The translations under genes and the position numbers were made by a program. This document shows, piece after piece, positions 2,713 through 11,827 of a DNA stretch of 55,807 bases. How positions within the stretch are numbered: the stretch's first letter is position 1; every line of letters begins with the position of its first letter. The notes below the pieces were generated by a model. The model had not been told where the DNA came from. It saw only the letters and a program-made list of their open reading frames with translations, and made no database searches. Source of the DNA: Candidatus Saccharimonadota bacterium (GTDB lineage Bacteria > Patescibacteriota > Saccharimonadia > Saccharimonadales > Saccharimonadaceae); contig JAAXIO010000029.1 in the NCBI GenBank assembly GCA_012270305.1, forward strand, positions 1 to 55,807, written 5' to 3'.

Positions 2713-2803
2713 TTTTTAGATTTAATGATCAGGCTCTATTTAAATATATTTGCTACAATAAGAATACGATATTAGTGAGACCAGAAAAGGCATGGAGGGC
2801 AGT

Positions 2804-3199
2804 GTGTCAACAATAGACCAGCAGTTTGTAGAATATATCGTTAAGTCACTCGTGGGGCATCCCGACGATGTGGTGATTGAGCGAATTATTGATGAGAAGG
2901 GCGTGCTTCTAACTCTAACAGTGAATCCCGAAGACTTGGGGCGCGTAATTGGTAAGCGTGGTATGACCGCGCAAAGCCTTCGTACATTACTTCGTGCGCT
3001 TGGCACAAAGAATGACGCTCGCTATAACCTAAAGATCGTGAACAACGACGATGATCGTGAAAACTATACGATTACATCAAATGAAAGCATAAGCCAGTCT
3101 GTGGATGAAACAACAGATGAAGCTGTGGAAAACGATGAATCTGATTACGCGAAAAAGTCACGAAAAGAGCTTGCCGAGCTCGATGACCTCGATATATAA
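2804..3199 (+). CDS. khpA: KH-domain RNA-binding protein KhpA (YlqC family) with acidic tail
   Basis: A small cytoplasmic RNA-binding protein encoded near rpsP and trmD in many bacteria. The KH core runs from VEYIVKSLVGHPDDV to DLGRVIGKRGMTAQSLRTLL, with the GxxG loop as Gly-Lys-Arg-Gly. The family is usually about 75-80 residues; here an extra C-terminal tail of about 45 residues rich in Asp, Glu and Ser follows, probably disordered. I chose GTG 2804 because GGAGGG (2794-2799) precedes it; an in-frame ATG at 2792 would overlap that Shine-Dalgarno and lacks its own. No rimM follows, unlike the classical rpsP-rimM-trmD order. Confidence 0.87.
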   Translation: MSTIDQQFVEYIVKSLVGHPDDVVIERIIDEKGVLLTLTVNPEDLGRVIGKRGMTAQSLRTLLRALGTKNDARYNLKIVNNDDDRENYTITSNESISQSVDETTDEAVENDESDYAKKSRKELAELDDLDI

Positions 3200-3205
3200 T
3201 CATAA

Positions 3206-3315
3206 GTAGTTCTGGATAACTGCGAGAACTACAAAAAGCTCTATGCGAGCAAACCTAAAGGTTTGAGAGCCTTATATGTGATAAGAACAGCCCATATTTG
3301 TGGGCCGTTTTTATT
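3206..3315 (+). other. Hairpin-rich non-coding segment ending in a terminator-like hairpin
   Basis: Three consecutive inverted repeats follow khpA. GTAGTTCT (3206-3213) pairs with AGAACTAC (3225-3232). GCTCT (3238-3242) pairs with AGAGC (3266-3270), enclosing AAACC/GGTTT (3251-3255, 3260-3264). GCCCA (3290-3294) pairs with TGGGC (3301-3305) and is followed by a T-run. The last is a plausible terminator for khpA and, read the other way, for the minus-strand small gene. The first two could be part of a small RNA or attenuator; I do not recognise a known family. Confidence 0.5.
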
Positions 3316-3331
3316 TCGATTACAAATACAA

Positions 3332-3421
3332 TTACTTGCGACGCTTTTCGAGTTCGGCTGATCCCCAGGTGAGGATGGAATCTAATGCGGCATGTGCGGC
3401 AAGTATGTCAAATATGACCAT
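3332..3421 (-). CDS. Candidate leaderless 29-residue protein
   Basis: I do not recognise this protein. It begins MVIFDILAAHAALDSIL and ends with Glu-Lys-Arg-Arg-Lys, an amphipathic-looking helix with a basic tail. The case for a real gene is its promoter: on the minus strand TTGACT (3456-3451) and TATTAT (3433-3428) are 17 nt apart and the ATG follows 6 nt after the -10, exactly the architecture of csoR in this window. A terminator-like hairpin lies 16-40 nt after its stop. It is divergent from trmD. Without conservation data this stays a candidate. Confidence 0.45.
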   Translation of the reverse strand: MVIFDILAAHAALDSILTWGSAELEKRRK

Positions 3422-3427
3422 CTTTTT

Positions 3428-3456
3428 ATAATAGCATATATAGACATTATAGTCAA
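3428..3456 (-). promoter_or_regulatory. Minus-strand promoter of the 29-residue ORF
   Basis: TTGACT and TATTAT on the minus strand are separated by exactly 17 nt; transcription would start at or next to the ATG at 3421, predicting a leaderless mRNA. Confidence 0.5.
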
Positions 3457-3476
3457 TAGCTGCTACTCTAGTAACA

Positions 3477-4130
3477 ATGAGAAAACTACAAGTAATCACA
3501 CTGTTTCCTGACATGTTCACGGGCGTATTTGGTAGCTCGATGATGTGGAAAGCACAGGACGATAACATTGTTGAGTTATCGACGGTGAACTTGCGTAATT
3601 TTGGCATTGGACCACGTAAACAGGTGGATGATACGCCATATGGCGGCGGTGATGGTATGCTACTCAAACCAGAACCACTATTTGCTGCTGTTGAACATGC
3701 GAAAGAAATCGATCCGAGTGCGAAGGTCCTCCTGATGACGCCACGTGGTGTGCGTTGGAAGCAAGCTTTGGCTCAGGAATACTCGGCGACTGAGCATGGT
3801 TACATATTTATTTGCGGACGATATGAGGGTTACGACGAGCGCATACTAAACGTGGTTGACCAAGAGGTAAGCGTAGGAGATTACGTACTAACTGGCGGCG
3901 AGCTACCGGCTATGACGATTATTGATAGCATTGTGCGGTTAATACCTGGTGTGTTGGGCGGCGAGGCTAGCGCGGAAATTGAAAGCTTTACCGATGGTGA
4001 GACTCTAGAGTTTCCACAATATACGCGCCCGGAAGAATTTAACGGGATGAAAGTTCCCGAGGTATTATTGAGTGGCCACCACGGTAAGATCGCCGAATGG
4101 CGCAAAGAACAAAGTAAGAAGGCTTTGTAA
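3477..4130 (+). CDS. trmD: tRNA (guanine-37-N1)-methyltransferase TrmD
   Basis: Methylates G37 next to the anticodon of tRNAs reading CNN codons, using S-adenosylmethionine, which protects the reading frame. The 217-residue protein shows the trefoil-knot SPOUT core: VITLFPDMF at the N terminus, VDDTPYGGGDGMLLKPEPL, ICGRYEGYDERI and VGDYVLTGGELPA, followed by the C-terminal tRNA-binding part with YTRPEEFNGMKVPEVLLSGHH. Length is slightly below the usual 230-250. It follows khpA in the expected region but rimM and rplS are absent from the cluster. Confidence 0.97.
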   Translation: MRKLQVITLFPDMFTGVFGSSMMWKAQDDNIVELSTVNLRNFGIGPRKQVDDTPYGGGDGMLLKPEPLFAAVEHAKEIDPSAKVLLMTPRGVRWKQALAQEYSATEHGYIFICGRYEGYDERILNVVDQEVSVGDYVLTGGELPAMTIIDSIVRLIPGVLGGEASAEIESFTDGETLEFPQYTRPEEFNGMKVPEVLLSGHHGKIAEWRKEQSKKAL

Positions 4131-4193: not shown

Positions 4194-4207
4194 CTGATAA
4201 AAGATAC

Positions 4208-4252
4208 ACAACATATTAAAAACGCCCAACTCGGGCGTTTTTAATATGTTGT
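4208..4252. terminator. Bidirectional terminator with a perfect 20-bp stem
   Basis: Positions 4208-4227 are the exact reverse complement of 4233-4252, with AACTC as the loop. The core AAAACGCCC/GGGCGTTTTT is flanked by A-runs and T-runs, so it can terminate on both strands. The stem continues through ATATTAAA/TTTAATAT and CAACA/TGTTG, far longer than termination needs. Confidence 0.8.
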
Positions 4253-4408
4253 GGTGGATGTCGTAGAGCGAACGATACATTTTTAATTGGAGTTTTTGTT
4301 TTTGTAAAGTCGCTGAACATGACTATACCGATACGAGTTCAAAAGCGCAAGCGTATTCATGAAAATAACAACAGTATACAAACGATAGTACCCAGGTATA
4401 ATGAAGGA

Positions 4409-4888
4409 ATGAGTGTTCAGGCAAATTATGGTGCGCCGCGTACAGCTAGCGCAAAAGTTGCTTCACTGACGGCTGCTGCAATGTTGGTATGTATGCTGCT
4501 TGCTCAACTTTTTAATTACGAAGATTTTGCCGTAACATTAGGAACAGTCTTGCCGTTTAACGACATCGTAGGTACAAAAGTACTTGCTGCTAGCATTGTG
4601 GCGCTAGAACTACTTGCACTACCGTATCTGCTCAGTATGTATTTGAGCGCACTCATGCGGGTTACTTGTGCGCTGGCGGCAGCTGCCGTTGCGTTGTTCT
4701 GGCTAATGATCGCCTTTACAAACGCTCATGCGAGTAATAGTGCGTTTTTCTCAACCACCATCGACTTACCTGGCGGCATAATTGCGGCACTATGGGCGGT
4801 TGTTTTGAGCGGATTAATTGCTGCCACAATATACGGTGACACTCGTGACCATAGCAACCCTCTTGAGAAAAAGCCTAAACTACGCTAG
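4409..4888 (+). CDS. Four-helix membrane protein, DoxX/MauE-like
   Basis: A hydrophobic protein of 159 residues with about four membrane helices: AKVASLTAAAMLVCMLLAQL, VLAASIVALELLALPYLL, VTCALAAAAVALFWLMIAF and GIIAALWAVVLSGLIAATI. The order, with a polar loop NYEDFAVTLGTVLPF after helix 1, resembles MauE/DoxX-like quinol or redox accessory proteins, but I see no diagnostic motif, so the family call is weak. ATG 4409 is chosen over the in-frame ATG at 4319 because TATAAT (4397-4402) ends exactly 6 nt before it, predicting transcription starting at the A of ATG. Confidence 0.65.
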   Translation: MSVQANYGAPRTASAKVASLTAAAMLVCMLLAQLFNYEDFAVTLGTVLPFNDIVGTKVLAASIVALELLALPYLLSMYLSALMRVTCALAAAAVALFWLMIAFTNAHASNSAFFSTTIDLPGGIIAALWAVVLSGLIAATIYGDTRDHSNPLEKKPKLR

Positions 4889-11542: not shown

Positions 11543-11827
11543 ATGATAAGCGATATAAAACGACGAGCATTACACCGTTCCAAGATTCTTCAGGGCCAGA
11601 TGAAGGGGCTAGAGAAGATGATAGATGGAGAGGAGTATTGTATGGATATAATCACGCAGTCACTTGCGATTCAGAAGTCGCTCGCATCACTTAATAAGTT
11701 AATTGTCGAAAACCATCTCAAGACGCACGCCGCTACAAGCCTCGCATCGGGCGATGAAGAAAAGCAGGCGGACACCATTACGGAATTGATAGGTTTATAT
11801 GAACTTACGCATGTCCGTGGAAAGTAA
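11543..11827 (+). CDS. csoR: CsoR/RcnR-family metal-sensing repressor
   Basis: An all-helical repressor of 94 residues that leaves its operator when it binds metal. The fold is recognisable from RSKILQGQMKGLEKMI, EEYCMDIITQSLAIQKSL and VENHLKTH. The metal ligands of Cu(I)-type CsoR are Cys-His-Cys; here they are Cys33, His58 and His62, because the third Cys is His. A C-H-H set is closer to Ni/Co sensor RcnR, although RcnR's N-terminal His is not clearly present. It precedes the P1B ATPase by 49 nt and probably regulates it and itself. The metal cannot be fixed from sequence. Confidence 0.9.
   Translation: MISDIKRRALHRSKILQGQMKGLEKMIDGEEYCMDIITQSLAIQKSLASLNKLIVENHLKTHAATSLASGDEEKQADTITELIGLYELTHVRGK

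Follow-up and report, generated by a model that had tools for sequence, protein, structure and literature searches.

A 29-codon ORF in the khpA-trmD gap of Saccharibacteria: a probable leaderless small gene confined to one species pair

Locus organization and promoter layout

The window, meaning the whole 55,807-nucleotide stretch of DNA that was analysed (contig JAAXIO010000029.1 of assembly GCA_012270305.1, Candidatus Saccharimonadota bacterium), carries a 29-codon ORF on the minus strand in the intergenic gap between two genes that we take to be khpA and trmD, following an initial annotation that named them from the sequence alone (Table 1). That annotation had proposed a leaderless gene here, made up of a minus-strand TTGACT box, a 17-nt spacer, a TATTAT box and, after 6 nt, an ATG opening 29 codons; the arrangement is present at 3332-3456, just as it had been placed. 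Its description as lying opposite trmD is wrong, as trmD, a plus-strand gene, starts only at 3477 and the ORF occupies the intergenic gap, divergent from it. The distance from the -10 to the ATG is 6 nt both in the window genome and in its closest relative, G007, and falls in the leaderless range of about 5-8 nt. The intervening bases are AAAAAG in the window and AAGAAG in G007, with no Shine-Dalgarno site.

Table 1. Coordinates of the features at the khpA-trmD locus (positions in the window)
Feature	Position	Strand	Remark
khpA-like KH-domain ORF	2792..3199	plus	upstream of the gap; start ATG 2792 or GTG 2804
Conserved RNA-like element	3222-3316	plus	directly after khpA
Hairpin terminator after khpA	3286..3310	plus	T-run on plus strand; scored as plus-strand terminator only
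29-codon ORF, predicted peptide MVIFDILAAHAALDSILTWGSAELEKRRK	3332..3421	minus	ATG 3421-3419, TAA 3334-3332; coding selection indicated by comparison with G007
-10 TATTAT of 29-codon ORF	3428..3433	minus	TG upstream (extended -10, TGC-TATTAT); 6 nt to ATG; unchanged in G007
-35-like TAGACA of trmD	3441..3446	plus	4 bp from minus-strand -35; our assignment
-35 TTGACT of 29-codon ORF	3451..3456	minus	unchanged in G007; identical box in most slot-occupied relatives
-10-like TACTCT (TANNNT) of trmD	3464..3469	plus	ends 7 nt before trmD ATG; assigned by alignment with relatives
trmD	3477..4130	plus	divergent neighbour of 29-codon ORF
Putative small RNA after trmD	about 4205-4345	minus	promoter-like stretch and very strong terminator (fold z -5.9)

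The hairpin beyond the stop codon had been claimed as the terminator of the ORF itself, which is not borne out. Because its T-run lies on the plus strand and relatives without the 29-codon ORF carry a hairpin terminator at the equivalent place, we regard it as mainly the khpA terminator; at best it would be bidirectional and could weakly stop the minus-strand transcript.

RNA-like elements were also noted nearby. The pattern of the element directly after khpA (GTTC..GAAC, GCTC..GCGAGC, AACC..GGTT, GAGAGCC, then the terminator) is matched in 55 of 96 loci, and RNAalifold gives it a central stem in which several base-pair types are exchanged; it has no Rfam match. The putative small RNA after trmD contains the motif AGCGA..ACAAAAACAAA..TCGCTCTACGACATCCACCACAAC, which was seen in many loci of the family. 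Over the Rfam search as a whole, only two sub-threshold matches were returned, at a terminator.

Frequency of the layout in the window

A scan for the layout (a -35 matching at least 4 of 6 positions, a -10 matching at least 5 of 6, and an ATG or GTG at 5-8 nt opening at least 20 codons) found the combination of promoter and leaderless ORF 4 times in the window, whereas 30 Markov-resampled windows averaged 3.1 and yielded at most 8. The architecture of the 29-codon ORF alone is not beyond chance and, since the layout is no more frequent than chance would have it, the case for a gene is decided by comparison with a relative.

For long frames across the window, the most common distance from the -10 to the first start is 6-7 nt, seen in 7 of 57 frames. 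Two of the four layout matches open long plus-strand frames, one starting at 4409 and one of 94 codons at 11543, each with a -10 TATAAT exactly 6 nt before the ATG; these are further leaderless-gene candidates.

Codon-level comparison with the closest relative

Among the 13 other genomes of the same genus, G007 alone has a convincing match to the ORF (E 1e-13, 26 of 29 residues identical), and this match occupies the equivalent position between khpA and trmD. Over 90 nt the two copies differ by 13 substitutions and no indels; nine of the 13 fall at third codon positions, and the three replacements are all conservative (L/I, I/L, K/R). Counted by site class, there are 9.5 synonymous changes on 21.2 sites and 3.5 replacement changes on 65.8 sites (pS 0.45, pN 0.05). 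When the same base changes were placed randomly, three or fewer residue changes together with an open frame arose in 0.034% of 200,000 trials (p 0.00034). Because the frame was named before any comparison, this is a single test, not one picked out of many. Applied to the other frames, such a test gave p values of 0.95-0.98 for four of them and 0.024 for the fifth, a plus-strand frame sharing third codon positions with the ORF.

The substitution pattern indicates that purifying selection preserves the 29-residue peptide, and as only one relative carries the ORF, the evidence for this is one pairwise comparison with 13 substitutions. The core of the initial proposal, a real small gene, stands in that the frame is intact in G007 and appears to be under purifying selection there. 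We consider the 29-codon gene, which is below the size that ordinary gene finders handle, to be very probably a genuine small protein-coding gene.

Some of these observations could also arise if the frame were open by chance next to an AT-rich stretch that resembles a promoter, with the similarity to G007 reflecting shared ancestry. The layout is expected about three times per window, and the ORF is missing from the other 12 same-genus genomes, as such an origin would allow. At 14% nucleotide divergence, however, more than three residue changes would be expected under neutral drift, as the randomisations show, and directly downstream of the stop codon the sequence is scrambled, with differences at 5 of 17 bases and a 3-nt gap; we hold this explanation to be quite improbable. 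Another reading would confine function to the promoter, with minus-strand transcription tuning trmD by promoter interference and the ORF being incidental. Between the two genomes the interleaved divergent promoter has hardly changed (1 of 55 positions differs), and G006 and G011 keep a similar minus-strand promoter (TTGATT-17-TATTAT) without such an ORF, both of which would suit it. It is nevertheless rather unlikely, as most substitutions across the 87 coding bases are synonymous, exactly in the frame of the ORF, and codon periodicity is not predicted for a mere transcript.

It is also conceivable that what is conserved is the plus-strand frame mentioned above (43 codons, 3300-3431) or a structured plus-strand RNA of the gap. 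This frame is open in the window and, as far as the comparison extends, free of stops in G007; its third codon positions coincide with those of the ORF (differences 1, 3, 9). Its ratio is weaker (pS 0.25, pN 0.12), as is its p value when set against that of the ORF, and its GTG start lies inside the khpA terminator hairpin. As for a structured RNA, the RNA of the ORF, with the minus strand folded, folds no better than shuffles (z -0.7). We regard both versions as very improbable and retain a minus-strand small gene as the preferred reading.

Divergence between the two genomes changes in sharp steps from block to block, being 6 of 396 in khpA, 1 of 112 in the RNA element and terminator, 13 of 90 in the ORF and 141 of 654 in trmD; that of the ORF is about equal to that of the first 150 bases of trmD (22 of 150). 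Steps of this kind suggest a recent exchange of the khpA block between the two lineages. With the khpA block nearly identical and trmD strongly diverged, the locus (window 2743-3311, loci L035 and L003) appears as a mosaic, which suggests that the recent recombination ended between the khpA terminator and the small ORF.

Distribution of the ORF

Convincing matches to the ORF, judged by E-value, were found in 2 of 394 genomes of the family. The initial annotation had called for a search at this locus in other Saccharibacteria; an intact copy was found in G007, and conservation across many relatives was not. Another 48 family genomes gave matches with E<1 that are most plausibly due to chance (the best being 0.0056 per genome, with 394 genomes searched), and a match in G011 (E 0.46) is read in the same way. 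At order level, 392 genomes gave no match beyond the window's own genome at E <= 0.001, with G007 lying outside the genomes drawn and listed. A search of wider genome contigs returned a single record, Candidatus Saccharimonadia JALRDS010000005.1, which we take to be the sequence of G007 itself, and viral contigs gave no match to the ORF. The predicted gene is not general in Saccharibacteria and is confined to one species pair.

Interleaved promoters and a variable slot beside trmD

Relatives of trmD are present in 139 of 151 family genomes. We gathered 96 trmD loci (30 + 6 + 60), of which 86 were analysed and 10 dropped (nine with a trmD start unmatched by the pattern, one too short); the 96 loci leave out about 48 of those 139 genomes. 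The best -10 of trmD ends 7 nt (52 loci) or 8 nt (21 loci) before the ATG in 73 of the 86 loci, and a TANNNT -10 is found in 80 of the 86; for the window's own trmD, the automatic best-scoring -10 is a different hexamer, 4 nt from the ATG, from the TACTCT that we assigned. On these grounds trmD looks leaderless too. Leaderless initiation fits the 29-codon gene because the 6 nt from -10 to ATG leave no space for a Shine-Dalgarno site and a -10 near the trmD ATG is usual in the family, and we consider the gene likely to be leaderless. As the two -35 boxes lie 4 bp apart, the two promoters interleave, each -35 being inside the spacer of the other.

Among loci with both flanks located, the khpA-trmD gap ranges from 125 to 1248 nt, the khpA end of G044 having been placed manually. 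Minus-strand promoter scores average 10.09 in long-gap loci, an 'occupied' group that also takes in loci where khpA was not found within the stretch (n=59, 29 scoring at least 10), and 7.87 in short-gap loci (n=23, 1 scoring at least 10; p 3e-7); four of the 86 loci with gaps of 250-400, including those of the window and G007, belong to neither group. Base-shuffled sequence averages 8.1. Since the scores are higher where the slot is occupied, the minus-strand promoter appears to be a real feature of the locus.

A minus-strand ORF of at least 40 codons with a Shine-Dalgarno-like site, starting within 260 nt of trmD, is found in 43 of the 86 loci, and occupants of the slot include those of G001, G002, G004 and G005 of the window's own genus. 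By eye, the occupants look mostly unrelated to each other, and many have membrane segments. Of ten from other species searched against Pfam, eight had no match at E <= 0.01 and two had weak matches below the cut-offs (zinc ribbon, Colicin_V). A scan for leaderless occupants recovered the 29-codon ORF in both genomes of the pair and four weaker frames, two of 2-4 codons (G050), one of 54 (G115) and one of 38 (G191); G115 and G191 also carry Shine-Dalgarno-led ORFs in the slot. The predicted 29-codon gene is the smallest occupant, and an apparently leaderless one, among replaceable genes behind one promoter. More tentatively, and with somewhat less than even confidence, we suggest that the divergent promoter may be a standing expression slot of the family, with a leaderless trmD on one side and, on the other, changing orphan genes of which the 29-codon gene would be a young or minimal example. 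If so, occupants would be replaced so often that members of one genus carry unrelated ones, and with a -10 placed only 6 nt from an ATG even a bare short frame could immediately become a translated gene.

A common leader hairpin of the type CTCAAG..CTTGGGCGAAAG..GCCC was observed upstream of slot genes in G002, G005, G021, G047, G135 and G186 and downstream of trmD in locus L013, where it precedes the Shine-Dalgarno site of otherwise unrelated minus-strand genes. Some loci also have a common element, GAAGAAAGCYCCCTGAAGAGCTACAAGC..CAACAGCGAGCTTTCTTC, on the khpA side. Together the hairpin and this element look like a shared expression cassette around replaceable genes.

Properties of the predicted peptide

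The predicted peptide has a net charge of 0 and a GRAVY of 0.31; its first 19 residues are for the most part hydrophobic (a hand-summed Kyte-Doolittle mean of about 1.5), and it ends in a charged C-terminal tail (SAELEKRRK). The helix-like composition pointed out initially is not distinctive, as the hydrophobic moment is reached by 79% of shuffles for the window copy and 74% for the G007 copy. An amphipathic membrane peptide is not supported on this basis. Searches of family libraries (Pfam, PADLOC, NCBIfam) and of solved structures gave nothing above threshold for the peptide. A small antitoxin-like or addiction-module peptide is brought to mind by a match of the G007 copy to Pfam PF09720 (Unstab_antitox; E 0.037), which at 14.5 bits is below the gathering cut-off of 23.3. 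The window copy has no match to this family, the gap contains no partner gene on either strand, and PADLOC and NCBIfam give nothing, so that we find such a role scarcely credible. That the product of the preferred small gene is a short helix that binds the membrane or a partner protein is a speculative suggestion and is somewhat doubtful.

Proposed expression and implications

In the model that we propose, a sigma-70-type RNA polymerase would start from the minus-strand promoter with its extended -10, taking the A of the ATG, or a base within about one of it, as the first base of the RNA. Because the RNA would start at this A, the mRNA would be leaderless, and the ribosome would begin directly on the 5'-terminal AUG. 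The 29-residue product might then act as a short helix on the membrane or a partner protein. As the promoters interleave, polymerase presumably could not load both at once, and the small gene would probably be expressed in balance with trmD. Taken as a whole, a real leaderless small gene of one species pair, with this expression and a helical peptide, seems to us reasonably likely.

The comparison provides a codon-level case for a 29-codon leaderless ORF of an episymbiont lineage being maintained by selection, and with such an ORF under selection, small proteins are probably undercounted in such reduced genomes. With its fixed promoter, the variable slot next to trmD allows small orphan genes to be traced across species as they are gained and lost.

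Comparison with known systems

Other minus-strand genes of the khpA-trmD gap in the same family share the promoter box, the strand and the neighbour trmD with the 29-codon gene. They differ in being longer (at least 40 codons, by the filter used), mostly 80-125 nt from trmD, Shine-Dalgarno-led and unrelated in sequence.

Within the titles and abstract openings covered by our literature search on Saccharibacteria, Patescibacteria and the candidate phyla radiation, none was found on leaderless genes; on small RNAs and transcription start sites in Saccharibacteria, one review was listed. In the portion of its text available, one paper mentions leaderless mRNA only through YchF (PMC12641178). Further afield, leaderless small-protein genes are known from mycobacteria, where a 5'-terminal ATG or GTG is described as sufficient, according to the available part of the report (Shell et al. 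2015, PMC4633059). These are likewise short unannotated ORFs whose ATG is the 5' end of the mRNA; they belong to another phylum, whereas the present gene is proposed from promoter spacing and codon-level conservation. In Deinococcus-Thermus, a TANNNT -10 motif adjacent to ORFs gives leaderless mRNA, as described in the available part of a paper that mentions neither Saccharibacteria nor Patescibacteria there (PMC12340547). The likeness lies in a -10 directly before the start codon and an mRNA that would have no leader, while the locus described here differs in also having a good -35 and an extended -10, and in arranging its promoters as an interleaved divergent pair.
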